From Acetobacter oeni (lineage in GTDB: Bacteria > Pseudomonadota > Alphaproteobacteria > Acetobacterales > Acetobacteraceae), in assembly GCF_011516825.1 (NCBI RefSeq), contig NZ_WOTA01000009.1:62001-126000 (forward strand): 64,000 nt of DNA. Reading direction: 5' to 3'. Every line of letters begins with the position of its first letter. Within the stretch, counting starts at the first letter, position 1. Below the pieces are notes generated by a model. The model ran no database searches, had not been told where the DNA came from, and saw only the letters and a list, made by a program, of their open reading frames with translations. A program made the translations under genes and the position numbers. Positions 22,321 to 62,116 of the stretch are shown here, one piece after another.

Positions 22321-22953
22321 TTGAAAGATCTTTGCGCGCTTCGAAACACCCGTGGTTCGAAAGCCTCCGGAACCGGAACCCCCGGACTCAAAACCCCTGG
22401 CCGCCGCCTGCTCGCCTGTCTCGCGGCCATCAGCCTGACAGCCCTTGTGCCACAGGCCCTCGCGGCAGCAGACAGCCAGACCAGACCGTCGCCAGCGTCT
22501 ACGGGCCAGGAAGCCGACATACACCCGAACGTCAGCGGCGCCAACGTGCCCGGTCAGGATACTGCCGCCGCGGAAATCACCATTCACGACGGATGGATGC
22601 AGCATGTCAGCCCCAGAGCAGACCTGGTCGCCGTCTACTTCTCCGTGGAAAACACATCCGACCGCTCCCACCTGATCGACCGTATCACCTCGCCGTCCTG
22701 CTCGGAAATGTTCGGCTATCATTCAGACCTGGAAATCTCCACGCTGACACACGAACTCTTCACGCATCTGACACTGCCCGCCAAACAGACACTGGTCTTT
22801 CCGCCAGGCGGCTACCATCTCGTCTGCCACGTCGCCCCCGGCACGACCATCGCTCAGGGCTCAACCGTCGACATTGAATTCCACTTCCTGGGCGGCACCC
22901 GGAAAACCGTCGCCTTTCAGGTCCGCGAGGCAAAGCAGTTCCGGAAAGAGTAA
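22321..22953 (+). CDS. secreted PCu(A)C-type copper chaperone, ligand-altered variant
   Basis: A 210-residue protein with a signal peptide (RRLLACLAAISLTALVPQAL, cleavage near AAA). From about residue 85 it follows the PCu(A)C fold: ITIHDGWMQHVSPRADLVAV, YFSVENTSD, FGYHSD, LPAKQTLVFPPGGYHLVCHV. These periplasmic proteins deliver copper to cytochrome oxidase. The usual ligand set is H-(M)-x10-M-x21-H-x-M; here the histidines remain but the methionines are replaced (HLV-C-H at the last site). The only plausible start is TTG 22321, with GGGGAGA 8 bases upstream, since the first internal ATG is past residue 90. Divergent from nrdR. Confidence 0.7.
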   Translation: MKDLCALRNTRGSKASGTGTPGLKTPGRRLLACLAAISLTALVPQALAAADSQTRPSPASTGQEADIHPNVSGANVPGQDTAAAEITIHDGWMQHVSPRADLVAVYFSVENTSDRSHLIDRITSPSCSEMFGYHSDLEISTLTHELFTHLTLPAKQTLVFPPGGYHLVCHVAPGTTIAQGSTVDIEFHFLGGTRKTVAFQVREAKQFRKE

Positions 22954-23652: not shown

Positions 23653-25230
23653 TTAACGCACGACACGCCCTGAAGCTGTGCTGACCGGACGTGAAGCGCG
23701 ACCCGACGCCTGACCTCTCGCAGCGAGATGGACCAGCGCCAGCAACGGGAGAAGCCAGATGACCCGTGCCTGGAAACGATCATAGGGTGAGGCCACGATC
23801 CCGCAAACCGCCGCATTGATGGCGAGACCGGCGATCACGAGCGCTGTTGCCGGCCATAACTGCGTGCCCGGACCGGCGGCGGACCGTGATGTCCGCGTGC
23901 GGACTATGATCACCGCCAGTACCAGCACACTGAGGATCAGTGCCGTATATGTGACAGCCGTCAGCACCTGCTCCAGATCTCCCGGACTTGCGACCACGGA
24001 CTGCATCGCCCGCCGGGACTCCTTCGGCGGCAATCGGGGCGCCACCGCATCCAGGATATAAATCTCCTGTACGCGAAACATCGCGAGCTGCTCTGCAAAA
24101 GCCGCGCTGAGTCCCATAACCGTCGCGACAGGCTGATCCTTCAGAACAGCGAGCGCGAAAGTGACCTGCTCATCGCTGATACGCCGTTTGGCGGGAGCCC
24201 CGGCCAGTGCAAAAACGCCGGTGGCGGGACTGGTGCTGAACATAAAGTCGCGCCAGTCGACCGGCAGCTTTACCCGGTCGTTGCAGATCTCGAAATGCGC
24301 CTGTGGACAGTGGTTTTTGAGGTAGGTCGTTCCCGGTCCCATCTCCTGAAGGTGCGCGGACAGGAACGGAAGCCGGACCGGCGGCGATCCGACCGCGTGC
24401 GTGGCGACACGGGTGAACACAACCTCACCAGTCAGTCCGACGCAAACAGCGGCCAGCACCAGCATTGCCGGCCGGATCAGAGGTGCCCGGGGAAGCCGGC
24501 CGAGGCGAGCAAAGGCGTAACCCGTCATGACCAGGAGGACAGCCAGCGGCGGATGGCTGTTATGCGCCAGCATCGCAAAGCTCAGGATGACGAACGCCGC
24601 CATCCGATCGCCCCGACTTAACCGATCCCAGCCGCAGAGCAGCGTCACAATCAGCAGAATGGTTACGCTGGCGAAAATATCCGGCATCATCAGCCCGGTG
24701 AAATAACCCAGTGGTGTGACAATCGTCAGCACCGCCATGCAAACCAGGGCGTATCCGACTCTTCCAGGCAAAAATGCCCGAAAAAAAAGCAGGATCGTGA
24801 AGGATACCACCAGAGCCTGGACCGCCGCCGCGATCATGAGTGAGCCCGCCAGGATCGATGCGAACAGCAGGGCTCCGTAATAAACCGAGCGCCCGGCGAG
24901 ATAAACGCCGCCCCTGGTCGAAATGATGCCGCCCGGCGCTGTCGGATAAGGATTTTCCTGCGAAACAGCGGGCATCAGCCAGGCATGATCCCCGAGCAGC
25001 CTCATCACGCCCGCTCCGGCACCGTTGATATATGTTGGTGTGTCCCAGTAGAAAAAGACATCCCTGTTGAGCAGGGTCGGGACAAAAAGAATGATGGCCC
25101 CGACCAGAGTTATCAGGAATGAGTTCCGCCAGACTTTCGCTGCAGGGGAGGGAGGAACAGCCAGCGTACGTTCGACAGAGCTGTCCTGCACCGTATTTCC
25201 TCCCGTGAACGACCATTCCGCTCCGGTCAT
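23653..25230 (-). CDS. large polytopic membrane protein, possible GT-C-type glycosyltransferase
   Basis: A 525-residue protein with about 11 hydrophobic helices. After the first helix there is a periplasmic-type loop with an acidic motif, NRDVFFYWDTPTYINGAGAG, a position where GT-C glycosyltransferases carry their catalytic Asp/Glu residues. A second loop (about 300-350) contains two cysteines (NHCPQAHFEICN), perhaps a disulphide. I do not recognise a named family. It is divergent from the UbiA/HAD gene pair across 467 bases, and use of the lipid-linked sugar made by that pair is a guess from position and topology only. Confidence 0.5.
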   Translation of the reverse strand: MTGAEWSFTGGNTVQDSSVERTLAVPPSPAAKVWRNSFLITLVGAIILFVPTLLNRDVFFYWDTPTYINGAGAGVMRLLGDHAWLMPAVSQENPYPTAPGGIISTRGGVYLAGRSVYYGALLFASILAGSLMIAAAVQALVVSFTILLFFRAFLPGRVGYALVCMAVLTIVTPLGYFTGLMMPDIFASVTILLIVTLLCGWDRLSRGDRMAAFVILSFAMLAHNSHPPLAVLLVMTGYAFARLGRLPRAPLIRPAMLVLAAVCVGLTGEVVFTRVATHAVGSPPVRLPFLSAHLQEMGPGTTYLKNHCPQAHFEICNDRVKLPVDWRDFMFSTSPATGVFALAGAPAKRRISDEQVTFALAVLKDQPVATVMGLSAAFAEQLAMFRVQEIYILDAVAPRLPPKESRRAMQSVVASPGDLEQVLTAVTYTALILSVLVLAVIIVRTRTSRSAAGPGTQLWPATALVIAGLAINAAVCGIVASPYDRFQARVIWLLPLLALVHLAARGQASGRASRPVSTASGRVVR

Positions 25231-25697
25231 GTGTCACATGGCAGTCGAAAGGTAAATTCTGCCAGACAACACGCCTTGCAACGGCATGCTGTGCTTCGAT
25301 TGTCGCTCTGTTCGCCGGTGGCACGCAGATTTGTGCCTGAACGTGCAAATACAGTTCGATCCGGGACGTTTGCCACAAACATCTCTGTGGTTATTCGTCA
25401 TGATATCTGCCGTCCGGGCCTGCTCCGGAAGAATCGGACCCGTCATCTGCGCCAACTTCATGCGGGGAAATCATTTTATTCTGTCACGCGAAGACTTTAT
25501 TTTGACGCAGTAACACCAGGTTATCGATTTTCCGGAGCTGCGATACCTGTATTGCCTGGTATTTTCCATCGTACACAGGTGACTCTGAATTTGACACCTG
25601 TGTCGTCATGGATCAATTATTAGACAGATCGCGTTCAGCTATTTGGATCAGGCCGTATTCAACCTGATCTTATTCGCCGGGTGACGCGGAACGTTTC
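25231..25697. promoter_or_regulatory. AT-richer divergent control region with a 9-base inverted repeat
   Basis: Gap between the divergent membrane protein and the UbiA gene, noticeably lower in GC than the flanks. It holds a perfect inverted repeat ACACAGGTG (25573-25581) and CACCTGTGT (25595-25603) with a 13-base spacer, about 100 bases before the UbiA start. It has the spacing and symmetry of a regulator-binding site; a hairpin in a leader is the alternative. No open reading frame here is convincing. Confidence 0.4.
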
Positions 25698-26693
25698 ATG
25701 GCAGATATGTTTATCAAAACCTCAATCACCGCCCCGTCCCGCGAACCAGGGACGCTGCGCGACTATATCGCCATCGCGAGGTTCGATCACAGCACGAAGC
25801 ACATATTCATTGTGCCCGGCGCAGTGCTTGCATGGCTGCTGCGGGGGGGAGGACACGTCCCCTCGCTGATCCTGAACATCGTGTGCGGCCTTGTCGCGGC
25901 AGTCTGCATCGCCTCGGCGAATTACGTCATCAACGAGTTTCTTGACCGCGAGTCTGATCGTCATCATCCGACAAAATCGCGCCGCTCCGCAGTCCGGCGC
26001 GATCTCGATCCCCGATACATCCGGCTCGAATGGGTGCTGTTCGTGACGATCGGGTTATCTGCGGCATTGCTGTCGAGCTGGCTGATGGCCGTCACGGCGG
26101 CGATATTTGCGATGCAGGGCCTTGTCTACAACGTCCCGCCGCTCCGCAGTAAGGACAAGCCGTTCCTCGATGTCATCTCCGAATCGATCAACAATCCTCT
26201 GCGGCTGATTATCGGCTGGGCTATGGTCGATCCGACAACACTGCCGCCGATCTCGATCATCCTCGCCTGCTGGCTCGGCGGCGCATTCCTGATGGCCGCC
26301 AAGCGTTTGTCCGAATACCGCGAGATCACCGCATTGCACGGCAAAAATCTGCTCATGCGCTACCGGGCCAGCTTCGCCGGCTATACCGATGTCTCGCTGA
26401 CAGTATCGACGTTTCTCTATGCACAACTGGCAAGTTTTTTTCTTGCGGTTTTCCTCATCAAATACCGCATCGAATACATTCTGACCCTGCCGCTGATCGC
26501 TGTGCTGTTTTCCTGTTACCTCGCGTTGTCGATGGAGGCAGGATCTTCCGCGCAGAGCCCGGAACGGCTCTATCGCGAAAAAAAACTGATCGCGATCGTG
26601 GTGCTGCTGGTGATCGTCTTCGGGCTGACGACCTTCATCAATCTTCCCTGGCTCGAAGTGCTGACCAGCCAGCACTTCATCACGCTCAACTGA
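25698..26693 (+). CDS. UbiA-family prenyltransferase, DPPR-synthase-like
   Basis: A 331-residue inner-membrane enzyme with about 9 helices. The first Asp-rich motif is NYVINEFLDRESDRHHPTK, which fits the decaprenyl-phosphate 5-phosphoribosyltransferase branch (N-x4-D-x3-D-x2-HP-x-K) better than UbiA, MenA or haem O synthase. A LMAAKRLSEYRE segment also fits this branch. Such enzymes transfer 5-phosphoribose from PRPP to a polyprenyl phosphate. The RP that normally follows the HPxK is replaced by RRSAV. The HAD-family gene 20 bases downstream supports a phosphoribosyl-lipid pathway, because the product needs a phosphatase. No DprE1/DprE2-type epimerase genes are in the window. Confidence 0.75.
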   Translation: MADMFIKTSITAPSREPGTLRDYIAIARFDHSTKHIFIVPGAVLAWLLRGGGHVPSLILNIVCGLVAAVCIASANYVINEFLDRESDRHHPTKSRRSAVRRDLDPRYIRLEWVLFVTIGLSAALLSSWLMAVTAAIFAMQGLVYNVPPLRSKDKPFLDVISESINNPLRLIIGWAMVDPTTLPPISIILACWLGGAFLMAAKRLSEYREITALHGKNLLMRYRASFAGYTDVSLTVSTFLYAQLASFFLAVFLIKYRIEYILTLPLIAVLFSCYLALSMEAGSSAQSPERLYREKKLIAIVVLLVIVFGLTTFINLPWLEVLTSQHFITLN

Positions 26694-26712
26694 CAGCCGG
26701 AGACGCGCGGAA

Positions 26713-27381
26713 ATGGACTGGGATACGGTCGATCTGGTCGTTTTCGACGTCGACGGCACGTTATACGATCAGCGGCGGCTGCGAATACGGATGGCCCGGG
26801 AACTTGTTACGCACACGCTGTTAAGGTGTGACTTAACAGCCATGCGCGTGCTCAGAACCTTCCGTAACCGTCGTGAGGCGCTTGCCGAGGCCGGGGCAGA
26901 GGATTTCGAAGCGCGCCTGCTGCGTGAGACCGCCACGGCAACCGGCGTGACCCCGGCGGCAGTGGAGGCGATCGTCGCCGAATGGATACTCCGCCGCCCG
27001 CTGCGTCACCTGCGGGCCTGCCGCTATCCGGCGGTCGATGACCTGTTCGCCGGCCTCGTGCGCGCGGGCAAGACCGTGGGCATTCTGTCGGACTATCCCG
27101 CGCGCGATAAGCTGCTCGCGCTCGGGCTGGAAGCGACGTTCGTCGTCACGGCGGGCGATGCCGGTCGCCTCAAACCCCATCCGCAGGGCCTGCTGACAGT
27201 CATGGCGCAGGCCGGCGCGTCGCCGGCGCGTACACTGCTCATCGGCGACCGGCCCGAACGCGACGGGATCGCCGCGCAGCGTGCGGGAACACGCTTTCTG
27301 ATCCGGACCGCACAGACGGCGGGAGATACCACGTTTGCCCGCTTCGATGCACCGGTCTTCGCGCCGGTCCTGGCTGTATAA
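26713..27381 (+). CDS. HAD-superfamily phosphatase
   Basis: A 222-residue soluble hydrolase with HAD motif I FDVDGTLYDQ near the N-terminus, motif II ILSDYPARDK, a motif III lysine (RLKPHPQGL) and motif IV LLIGDRPERDG. The cap is small and helical. It follows the UbiA-like gene after 19 bases, clearly co-transcribed. In several bacteria a HAD domain is fused to, or paired with, DPPR-synthase-like UbiA proteins and is thought to remove the 5-phosphate to give polyprenyl-phosphoribose; that role is inferred here. The cytosolic location fits. Confidence 0.8.
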   Translation: MDWDTVDLVVFDVDGTLYDQRRLRIRMARELVTHTLLRCDLTAMRVLRTFRNRREALAEAGAEDFEARLLRETATATGVTPAAVEAIVAEWILRRPLRHLRACRYPAVDDLFAGLVRAGKTVGILSDYPARDKLLALGLEATFVVTAGDAGRLKPHPQGLLTVMAQAGASPARTLLIGDRPERDGIAAQRAGTRFLIRTAQTAGDTTFARFDAPVFAPVLAV

Positions 27382-27472: not shown

Positions 27473-28642
27473 TCAGCCCCCGGGCAGCATCGCCAGAATT
27501 TCATCCGCCGCCGCGTCCGCCGGCTCCATCGCCCCCGCCGCCCGCAACCCCGCCAGCACATCGGCAAACCCCGCCCGCTGAGCCGCCGCCACCGCCGGGT
27601 CCGTTATCAGCCGGACCACCGTCGCCGCCAGCAGATCCGGACGACACTGCTCCTGCAACAGCTCCGGCACCAGTCGCCGCCCGGCCAGCAGATTGACCAT
27701 CGCCACATACGGAACCCGGATCAGCCGCCGCGCAATCGCCGCTGTCACCGGATTGACCCGATACGTCACCGCCATCGGCACACCCGCCAGAGCCAGCTCC
27801 AGCGTCGAAGTGCCGGATTTCGTCAGCGCCGCCCCCGCAGCAGCAAAGGCGTCGTGCTTGTCCGCGACATCCGTGACAATCACAGGCCGCACCGCCCACC
27901 CCGCCGTCGCCTTCAGAACCGTCCCGGCCACAACCGGCGAAACCGGAATCACAGGCACAACATCCGGCAGCTCCCGGCGCAAAATCGTCAGCATTTTCCC
28001 AAAAACCGGCAACAGACGCGGCGCCTCCGACCGCCGGCTCCCTGGCATCAGAATCAAAACCCGCGCGTCATCCGAAAGCCCGTGCCGCGCCCGGAACCGC
28101 GCCGCATCCCCCGTCTCCGCGCCCGACTGCAAAACCGGATGTCCGACAAACCGCGCATCCAGCCCGTGCCGCCGGAAAAAATCCTCCTCGAACGGCAGCA
28201 GAACCAGCAGCCGCTCCCACAAACCGGGAAATTTCCTGACCCGATGCTCCCGCCATGCCCAGACCTGCGGTGCCACATAATGCACCCGCGCAATCCCCAG
28301 AGGCGCAATCCGCCGCAACAGCCGCAACGCAAACCCCGGACTGTCAATCGTCACCACCAGATCCGGCCGCTCGGACTCAATGTGACGCACCGCATCGTCC
28401 AGACGCCGCGACAGACTGCGAATGCGCGGCAGAATCTCCACCAGACCCATCACCGCCAGCTCCTGCATCGGAAACAGACTCTCCAGCCCGCTCTCCTGCA
28501 TCCGCTGCCCGCCAATCCCGATAAACCGCAGATCCGCCCGCCGCCGCCCGAGCGCCGCCATCAGCCGCGCCCCCAGCACATCGCCACTGGCCTCGCCCGC
28601 CAGAAGCCAGATCACAGGGCCGTCAGCCACAGTCGGAATCAT
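27473..28642 (-). CDS. lpxB: lipid-A-disaccharide synthase
   Basis: A GT19 glycosyltransferase that joins UDP-2,3-diacylglucosamine and lipid X to the lipid A disaccharide at the inner membrane. Landmarks: LLAGEASGDVLGARLMAAL at the N-terminus, GLVEILPRIRSL, DSPGFALRLLR, YVAPQVWAWREHRVRK, LPFEEDFF, LMPGSRRSE, and SGTSTLELALAGVPMAVTYRV. I use ATG 28642 (389 residues); a TTG two codons earlier is less likely. It is convergent with the HAD gene and divergent from the transporter operon. Confidence 0.95.
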   Translation of the reverse strand: MIPTVADGPVIWLLAGEASGDVLGARLMAALGRRRADLRFIGIGGQRMQESGLESLFPMQELAVMGLVEILPRIRSLSRRLDDAVRHIESERPDLVVTIDSPGFALRLLRRIAPLGIARVHYVAPQVWAWREHRVRKFPGLWERLLVLLPFEEDFFRRHGLDARFVGHPVLQSGAETGDAARFRARHGLSDDARVLILMPGSRRSEAPRLLPVFGKMLTILRRELPDVVPVIPVSPVVAGTVLKATAGWAVRPVIVTDVADKHDAFAAAGAALTKSGTSTLELALAGVPMAVTYRVNPVTAAIARRLIRVPYVAMVNLLAGRRLVPELLQEQCRPDLLAATVVRLITDPAVAAAQRAGFADVLAGLRAAGAMEPADAAADEILAMLPGG

Positions 28643-28822
28643 GCGCAACAGTCATGATGCCCCGATAAGACCGCATCCCCGTCGATGCAAGGCGCCTGGT
28701 GATGCCGCACAGTAACGCCGGATATAAAATCGTCACCGCTCACGATTTTGCCGTTGGACGACAGCATAACGACAGTGCAGACACGACCGGACGGTAAAAA
28801 ACAATAATCAAGACCGAGGCCT

Positions 28823-61642: not shown

Positions 61643-62116
61643 CGCGACCTGAAAAGCAAAATGCTCTGCTACCCGGCATGAAAGCCTGTCCGGAAAATCA
61701 TGAGTGAGCGTTTCAGGGAATGCGAGAAGACGATAATCCGGTGGATGCATCACCGGGCCGTCCTGCACACACCCTTCAAAAACCATTCCGTAACCAAACC
61801 ATATTTCTCCACAACATTCCGGAATCCGCGCCGTCCCCGGACCCCGTCAACACCCCCCGCACAAAACAAACCTCCCCGCCCACCCGCGGAGACAGGCCCA
61901 ATCCCGGATCACCATTCCCGGAGCCGCCCCCATGCCACCCCGCATCCAGCCTCACCCCCCACCCGCCCGGTCAGCGTCCCGCCACCGGGCCACACAGTCC
62001 CGATACAATCCGTGATCCACAAACAAACATCCCCCACCCCTTCCGGAAAAATCCTTCTGCAATTCCCACCACCCCGCCGGCCGCGCTAAACTGAACGCCA
62101 CAGGAGGAGAGTCCGC
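61643..62116. other. intergenic gap, no gene recognised
   Basis: Proline-rich, C-rich sequence between FUSC and pdxJ. Short frames here have no family resemblance. No clear terminator for the FUSC gene. Confidence 0.35.

Follow-up and report, generated by a model that had tools for sequence, protein, structure and literature searches.

The three-component pentofuranose systems of Citrobacter youngae O1 and O2 (ORF12-ORF15; transferase family GT136) are among the closest described counterparts of the locus reported here, a three-gene element at positions 23,653 to 27,381 of a 64,000-nucleotide stretch of Acetobacter oeni DNA (the window; positions 62,001 to 126,000 of contig NZ_WOTA01000009.1, assembly GCF_011516825.1). 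As the main text of PMC11127046 describes them, these systems hold the same roles of UbiA-type synthase, HAD-family phosphatase and GT-C transferase; the HAD phosphatase domain of ORF15 dephosphorylates the transferred ribose-5-phosphate, and the catalytic residue proposed for the GT-C transferase is an aspartate near the first transmembrane helix. The mycobacterial decaprenyl-phosphoryl ribose/arabinose pathway (Rv3806c, Rv3807c, DprE1/DprE2, Rv3789, Emb/Aft) has in common with our locus a UbiA fold and, for the residues named in the available text of PMC10994848, 10 of 13 contact residues of the synthase. A phosphatase as the next step, GT-C transferases and a small flippase-type gene (GtrA, in relatives of our locus) extend the likeness, whereas a search of the genome found no DprE1 and Q135, Y157 and K208 of Rv3806c are changed. 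According to the main text of PMC11127046, Rv3807c is unrelated to the HAD-family phosphatases. Nod-factor arabinosylation by noeCHOP in Azorhizobium and Rhizobium is an alphaproteobacterial case whose first step is akin to that of the mycobacterial route, as far as the text available from PMC2443382 and PMC5080398 describes it; compared by description only, it differs in including arabinose-forming steps and in lying in a nod operon. The GtrA/GtrB/Gtr(type) O-antigen glucosylation cassettes are alike in their logic of lipid-phosphate sugar, flippase and GT-C enzyme and in changing a surface antigen (main text of PMC11127046). Their donor synthase is a GtrB-type nucleoside diphosphate-sugar enzyme, whereas here it is UbiA-type and a proposed user of phosphoribosyl pyrophosphate (PRPP). 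The Gtr cassettes are mobile, and serotype-converting cassettes, like the locus described below, occur as a unit at different chromosomal sites.

The locus consists of a 525-amino-acid (aa) open reading frame (ORF) on the minus strand (23653..25230) and, divergent from it on the plus strand, a pair of ORFs of 331 aa (25698..26693) and 222 aa (26713..27381). The first encodes a candidate GT-C-fold integral membrane glycosyltransferase, judging from its predicted fold and conserved residues. The second encodes a candidate UbiA-superfamily membrane phosphoribosyltransferase of the decaprenyl-phosphoryl-5-phosphoribose (DPPR) synthase type, on the basis of profiles, fold and contact residues, and the third, by profiles and motifs, a free-standing HAD-IA phosphatase with motifs I-IV intact, proposed to act on 5'-phosphoribose. 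The ORF list agrees with the coordinates given in the original prediction, which had been made from the sequence alone, and the UbiA stop and the HAD start are separated by 19 bases, against its figure of 20. Acetobacter estunensis has the identical gene arrangement, with homologues at 84% (UbiA), 78% (HAD) and 73% (525 aa), and given this match the arrangement is far more than chance.

We consider it probable, at roughly 0.72, that UbiA, HAD and GT-C components together make the locus a lipid-linked pentose cassette. In the mechanism we propose, the UbiA-type enzyme would very probably take 5-phosphoribose from PRPP and, on the cytoplasmic side of the membrane, place it on a polyprenyl phosphate that is probably undecaprenyl phosphate. 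The HAD enzyme would then strip the 5'-phosphate to leave polyprenyl-phosphate ribofuranose, and a flippase encoded outside the locus, of GtrA type in many relatives, would turn the lipid to the periplasmic face. There the 525-aa protein, with its predicted GT-C fold, may use D63 in its first periplasmic loop to pass what would be ribofuranose to a surface glycan or protein. Comparisons and models support the originally predicted polyprenyl-phosphoribose donor and GT-C-type transferase, and none of the three findings it had named as refuting (a UbiA protein that groups with aromatic prenyltransferases, a large protein of a non-glycosyltransferase family, genes that never co-occur) was made.

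In its mode of action such a cassette would resemble both the mycobacterial lipid-linked ribose route and the three-component pentofuranose systems, yet its GT-C family is unlisted, its HAD is encoded separately and it lacks a local flippase. As set out in the main text of PMC11127046, the C. youngae HAD is fused, whereas here it is a gene of its own, directly adjacent to the synthase; a GT-C gene also lies beside the synthase (23653-25230, divergent), whereas no MATE or GtrA flippase gene is adjacent. The neighbouring genes encode NrdR, a copper chaperone and LpxB rather than an O-antigen cluster, and the GT-C protein, set beside ORF12 of GT136 through the paper's text only, is without a Pfam or NCBIfam family. 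Because the DPPR-synthase cut-offs are not reached and there is no local flippase, the cassette is better regarded as a variant than as a member of the known systems. Neither Acetobacter nor Rhizobium is mentioned in the main text of PMC11127046, the one relevant paper on such systems that a literature search listed, and no description of the cassette was found in the open-access papers searched. With this locus, lipid-linked pentose transfer can be tested genetically in an acetic acid bacterium, and a GT-C superfamily with no Pfam or NCBIfam match in our searches gains a likely enzymatic function. The three-component concept would also widen to take in interchangeable GT-C families, and the combination of UbiA-HAD with GT-C, with or without GtrA, provides a bioinformatic handle on glycans of many Proteobacteria, including those of Rhizobium plasmids (pRL10) and Bradyrhizobium.

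Three proteins with candidate roles

The 331-aa protein matches PF01040 at 66.5 bits, above the curated cut-off of 34.2, which places it in the UbiA superfamily as originally assigned. Its best NCBIfam match is decaprenyl-phosphate phosphoribosyltransferase (NF008977), at a score below that family's cut-off. A PDB sequence search (phmmer) returned Rv3806c (8j8j) as the only match, and a profile search ranked Rv3806c (E 2.2e-15) ahead of the Archaeoglobus fulgidus UbiA (1.3e-6). In structural alignment, the AlphaFold2 model of the protein (predicted local distance difference test score, pLDDT, 92.5) was closest to PRPP-bound Rv3806c 8j8j (Z 27.7, root-mean-square deviation 2.5 over 285 residues), followed by 8j8k (Z 24.1) and A. 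fulgidus UbiA (4tq3, Z 23.4); Foldseek placed 4tq4 at the top by E-value and gave 8j8j the highest TM-scores among the 50 rows listed. Grouping with the ubiquinone or haem enzymes is not seen, as the best NCBIfam match, the only PDB sequence match and the nearest fold are all of Rv3806c type.

The available text of PMC10994848 names 13 residues of Rv3806c (R22, K28, Y70, N73, D77, K87, R90, Q135, Y138, K143, Y157, K191 and K208) that touch PRPP or decaprenyl phosphate or form the lining of that cleft, with K28 and Y70 assigned to the 5'-phosphate, N73 and D77 to Mg, and R22, K87 and R90 to the pyrophosphate. Ten of the 13 are identical in the 331-aa protein, as in the DPPR-synthase class, and these ten are identical in 83/83 rows of its family, which combine nine from alignment A3 with 74 of 80 UbiA loci of wider relatives (six were dropped by a length filter, and the pRL10 protein is counted twice). 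By comparison, the genome's own UbiA keeps 5/13 and its haem O synthase 6/13; these two other UbiA-superfamily proteins exceed the cut-offs for 4-hydroxybenzoate octaprenyltransferase and haem O synthase. The Mg/PRPP motif N79-E80-x2-D83-x3-D87-x2-H90-P91-x-K93, located by position and conserved in the family, lies at 25932..25976 on the plus strand and reads NxxxDxxxDxxHPxK (N79-K93), one x shorter than first written. The original prediction took an altered RP after this motif as a sign that the substrate may differ; that argument loses force, as the PRPP-contact arginine is kept (R90 of Rv3806c is R96 here), and the substitutions found instead are Q135 to G in 83/83 family rows and Y157 to N in 81/83. 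Because of the Rv3806c-like fold, the profile matches and the ten contact residues, the protein is very probably of DPPR-synthase type, with phosphoribosyl transfer chemistry and an altered hold on the ribose.

The 222-aa protein matches PF00702 at 63 bits (cut-off 26.4) and is a HAD-IA phosphatase. As originally described it carries all four motifs, at D12/D14, S126, K154 and D179/D184, and across 43 aligned HAD rows the conservation of each is 95% or more. The proposed phosphoribose phosphatase beside the synthase would correspond to that of the three-component systems.

No family match was found for the 525-aa protein in Pfam or NCBIfam, and a Pfam search of this protein and 22 relatives gave one chance match only (E 0.099). 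PDB sequence searches with the single sequence and with a first profile returned nothing. An antiporter subunit appeared with the second PDB profile (E 1.9e-4 over ~90 residues, with eight weaker matches) and was set aside because the structural alignments span residues 26-517 with GT-C proteins. These used an AlphaFold2 model built with 18 long-loop relatives (pLDDT 85.2, predicted template modelling score 0.87). Among the best 50 entries listed, with one row per entry, the top 43 are GT-C-fold proteins at Z 7.6-15.8, after which the score drops to 5.6. They include Pmt4 (15.8), AglB (15.7), PglB (14.0) and ArnT (13.9), the mycobacterial enzymes AftA (13.6), EmbB (12.2) and AftB (9.9), and two rows for the U chain of glycosylphosphatidylinositol transamidase, PIG-U, which we take to have a GT-C-like fold. 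By this model the 525-aa protein is of GT-C fold, in line with the type originally proposed, and Pfam and NCBIfam gave no match to a non-glycosyltransferase family.

Invariant in 19/19 long-loop rows are D63-x3-Y67, R114, P183-D184, H223/H226, C308/C316 and R485/R489. D63, which follows a helix at 29-55, is also invariant in 23/23 wider rows and provides an acidic residue in the first extracytoplasmic loop, whose periplasmic side is predicted from the fold. Compared through the main text of PMC11127046 only, ORF12 of C. youngae (GT136) has D31..Y35 where D63..Y67 stand here, and a late R-F/Y pair is alike. Two details of the original prediction fit less well. A crude hydropathy count gives 9 helices against the 11 stated, and in place of an acidic periplasmic-type loop the loops counted are neutral, with 4 K+R and 4 D+E in residues 56-115 and 5 of each in 281-344.

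Gene neighbourhoods and probable mobility

We examined the surroundings of the 80 UbiA loci, which are the best 80 of at least 568 relatives and lie in some cases on short contigs, using hidden Markov models (HMMs) of neighbour families built from sequences of these same loci. A HAD homologue follows directly, ending no more than 800 bases from the UbiA end, in 57/80 loci; in two more it lies ~2.6 kb beyond, for HAD matches in 59/80. In 67/80 loci the UbiA block has a polytopic protein (400 aa or more, with 7 or more hydrophobic segments) at its flank, against an estimated expectation of ~6-8 loci based on the 27 such proteins found in 686 kb further out (0.039 per kb). The flanking protein is of the 525-aa type in 18 loci, of cluster 8 in 21 and of cluster 17 in 9. 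One representative each of clusters 7, 8, 9, 11, 12, 14 and 17 was tested by family; that of cluster 8 (L112) matches PMT_2 and that of cluster 17 (L075) matches nothing. GT-C families over their cut-offs beside some other UbiA members are GT87 (L037, in Acetobacteraceae) and PMT_2 (L112, L068, L072), while in further Acetobacteraceae relatives one neighbour reaches PMT_2 under the cut-off (L038; 17.8 versus 26.1 bits) and another has no match (L036). Mapped onto the UbiA tree, all four neighbour labels require 12 changes versus 41 for shuffles, and the 525-type label 6, of which at least 2 are forced by well-supported branches.

The small membrane protein GtrA, the usual small flippase, lies within the cluster in 27/80 UbiA loci. 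Where the 525-type protein is present, HAD is found in 14 of the 18 loci, GtrA in 13 and both in 10, whereas HAD is found in 1/9 loci with a cluster-17 neighbour. Plasmid p9146 of Paracoccus carries the 525-type gene, UbiA and, across the record start, GtrA. The Rhizobium plasmids pRL10, pRetIE4803d and pWSM1455_4 (L056, L057, L060) have the gene order UbiA-HAD-GtrA, and six Rhizobium loci are among the 13/80 that have no large flanking polytopic protein. Rhodobacter sp. CZR27 (L059:5278-7935) encodes an 885-aa fusion of a HAD-UbiA-like part with a 525-type GT-C part, beside full UbiA and GtrA genes. The best NCBIfam match of the former part is PRK08238 (residues 35-389; 275.8 bits, cut-off 351), and the latter is 32% identical over query residues 26-492.

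Within Acetobacter, the 3/49 genomes that have UbiA at E <= 1e-30 are also the three that have the 525-aa protein at E <= 1e-5. The nearest named relatives of the window's UbiA are those of A. estunensis (84%) and A. fallax (83%). DNA homology to the A. estunensis and A. fallax loci (L066, L067) covers the three-gene block at 23716..27374, and no gene-size homology was found outside it in any of the three locus pairs, the flanks being unrelated in all three. Five further Acetobacter loci (L159-L163) have an empty site, with a gap of 161-544 bp between the PCuAC gene and lpxB and no counterpart of the segment 22937..27484; one of them (L159) belongs to a genome, G208, that holds the block at another place. 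Because of the shared block, the unrelated flanks and the empty sites elsewhere, the unit appears to move, or to have been gained, as three genes. The genes co-occur in Acetobacter and UbiA stands beside the 525-type protein in 18/80 relatives, contrary to the possibility, raised originally, that they might never be found together. On a UbiA tree that was searched quickly, leaves many forks open and has a very distant outgroup, the Acetobacter proteins form one clade among proteins mostly from other families of Proteobacteria. Identity to the window's UbiA is ~60% for Rhizobium plasmid proteins and 47-53% for Acetobacteraceae outside Acetobacter, and together with the tree placement this is consistent with horizontal transfer.

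Sugar identity and rival explanations

DprE1 is made up of FAD_binding_4 and ALO domains. No ALO-domain protein (PF04030) was found genome-wide by a search that was positive in a Corynebacterium glutamicum control. Five proteins carry FAD_binding_4 (PF01565): three also have FAD-oxidase_C (GlcD-type), one is MurB (MurB_C) and one has no second domain, its best NCBIfam match being GlcE, under the cut-off. The absence of nearby DprE1 genes noted originally therefore holds genome-wide for DprE1 by the PF04030 and PF01565 searches; DprE2, a generic short-chain dehydrogenase/reductase (SDR), was not searched for. Because no DprE1 was found in the genome, ribofuranose rather than arabinose is the likeliest product sugar. 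A 2-O-substituted ribofuranose is reported in the Gluconacetobacter diazotrophicus O antigen in the available text of a review (PMC4153317), where it is not linked to a cassette of this kind.

An enzyme encoded elsewhere might instead epimerise the lipid-linked ribose, so that arabinofuranose or xylofuranose is attached. In C. youngae O2 a single SDR epimerase makes xylofuranose (main text of PMC11127046), and relatives with the cluster-8 GT-C have a GMC-oxidase-cluster gene at 20/21 loci and an SDR-cluster gene at 13/21, the family of each cluster being assigned from one representative. However, the cassette itself has no epimerase gene, the DNA homology of the three Acetobacter loci is limited to the three genes, and the genome has no ALO-domain protein, its PF01565 proteins being GlcD-type, GlcE-like or MurB. 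We regard epimerisation as unlikely.

A second alternative is that UbiA and HAD do make polyprenyl-phosphate ribose, with the 525-aa GT-C protein a mere neighbour that uses another polyprenyl-phosphate sugar. In its favour, the 525-type superfamily, long-loop members included, is found where UbiA is not nearby, and other lineages have other GT-C types at this place. Against it, the 525-type protein stands beside UbiA in 18/80 loci, a pairing that may have arisen repeatedly or by gain followed by loss; CZR27 fuses HAD-UbiA-like and 525-type parts beside UbiA and GtrA genes; and the three genes stay joined at different Acetobacter sites. This explanation appears somewhat less plausible still.

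Further observations weigh against the lipid-linked pentose cassette as we propose it. A 525-type superfamily member (E <= 1e-5) is present in 87/200 Acetobacteraceae genomes and UbiA (E <= 1e-20) in 4/200. A search of 385 alphaproteobacterial genomes with the 525-aa protein gave 20 with a match (own included), and UbiA lay within ~1.5 kb of the 525-type protein at 0/20 places outside the own genome. No UbiA was seen when more of the sequence round six of these places (five regions) was read, nor was it found in a Polymorphobacter plasmid or in 12 Acetobacteraceae regions read wider. Among the proteins that have no UbiA nearby is a long-loop relative that carries the GRSVYY motif (L164/L185), and in genome G166 a long-loop relative (L039) and UbiA (L036) lie on separate contigs. 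The long-loop subgroup also occurs apart from UbiA. Membership of the fold family thus does not imply ribose as the sugar, and the donor assigned to the window's protein depends on its neighbours. For the 525-aa model, Foldseek by itself found nothing at E <= 0.001; its best match was an oligosaccharyltransferase (2.2e-3), with ArnT at 1.0e-2.

The synthase assignment has its own difficulties. The UbiA protein scores 32.2, 59.1 and 39.6 bits against the NCBIfam DPPR-synthase equivalogs NF008976, NF008977 and NF008978, with cut-offs of 474, 234 and 207, and so is outside these families, far under the cut-off even for the best match. Q135, Y157 and K208 of Rv3806c are replaced by G, N and A, and D74 by E. 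Among the 80 UbiA loci, 13 have no flanking polytopic protein and 21 have no HAD match, including 8/9 of those with a cluster-17 neighbour. Finally, no flippase gene lies in the cassette, which is flanked by copper-chaperone and lpxB genes; MATE proteins were not searched for genome-wide. The genome's GtrA matches, a GT2-GtrA-like fusion and a free-standing GtrA, are both away from the cassette, and the latter is a core gene, present in 48/49 Acetobacter genomes, and so is not specific.

The invariant N-E-x2-D and the changes of Q135 to G and Y157 to N would also fit a more speculative scheme, in which this UbiA family is a separate class of membrane-bound phosphosugar transferases that makes an undescribed lipid-linked sugar and serves as a common front end for plugged-in GT-C families, the cluster-8 branch converting the lipid-bound pentose to another sugar, possibly an amino-bearing one, by a route not homologous to DprE1/DprE2; we consider this scheme doubtful. 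Least credible is an ordinary prenyltransferase of quinone, haem, chlorophyll or archaeal-lipid type beside an unrelated housekeeping HAD: PF01040 membership, A. fulgidus 4tq3 as next in fold and 4tq4 as first by Foldseek E-value would suit it, but the genome's 4-hydroxybenzoate octaprenyltransferase and haem O synthase, both over cut-offs, are encoded elsewhere and lack K28, Y70 and K87, the residues for the 5'-phosphate and the pyrophosphate that are kept here, and HAD and polytopic neighbours are frequent.

Flanks and further observations

The assembly around the window comprises 4.1 Mb in 110 contigs. The neighbour of the 525-aa gene is a copper-chaperone gene (PCuAC; 22321-22953), beyond which lie NrdR and NusB genes, and the neighbour of the HAD gene is lpxB (27473-28648). 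The G+C content of the block is 0.597 versus 0.619 for the window, with no clear foreign signature in base composition. No clear direct or inverted repeat flanks the block, promoter and terminator scans did no better than on shuffles, and the phage records searched contained no UbiA match.

Eleven Acetobacteraceae loci (L040-L050) carry shorter-loop members of the 525 superfamily, a GT-C-like group, in tandem pairs in some genomes, where UbiA is absent; these are often near genes that by eye resemble uvrC, a CDP-alcohol phosphatidyltransferase and moaE. UbiA is likewise absent from two other stretches. In one (L186:5570-10699), two 525-superfamily genes flank a 169-aa protein that is GtrA-like by eye and has no match to the GtrA HMM or NCBIfam; in the other (L189:381-3133), a 525-superfamily gene is near a gene that matches the GtrA HMM (E 1.2e-10).

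The cluster-8 subtype (L112:4867-13732 and 20 other loci) is found in Sinorhizobium, Mesorhizobium, Ensifer, Novosphingobium, Sphingobium and others. Its 21 loci have HAD in 19, a GMC oxidoreductase in 20, a class-III aminotransferase in 15, an SDR epimerase in 13 and an LPG_synthase_TM-like protein in 13, and the GMC, SDR and aminotransferase genes are all present in 8/21. Together, the GMC and SDR enzymes could stand in for DprE1/DprE2 without being homologous to them. Lastly, the module may extend to Clostridia, provided that a record named as a Subdoligranulum variabile plasmid (L062:6198-9506) is sound; it shows a row of a 595-aa protein (apparently polytopic by eye), a UbiA (43%) and, with scores under the cut-offs, a HAD-IB-like protein.

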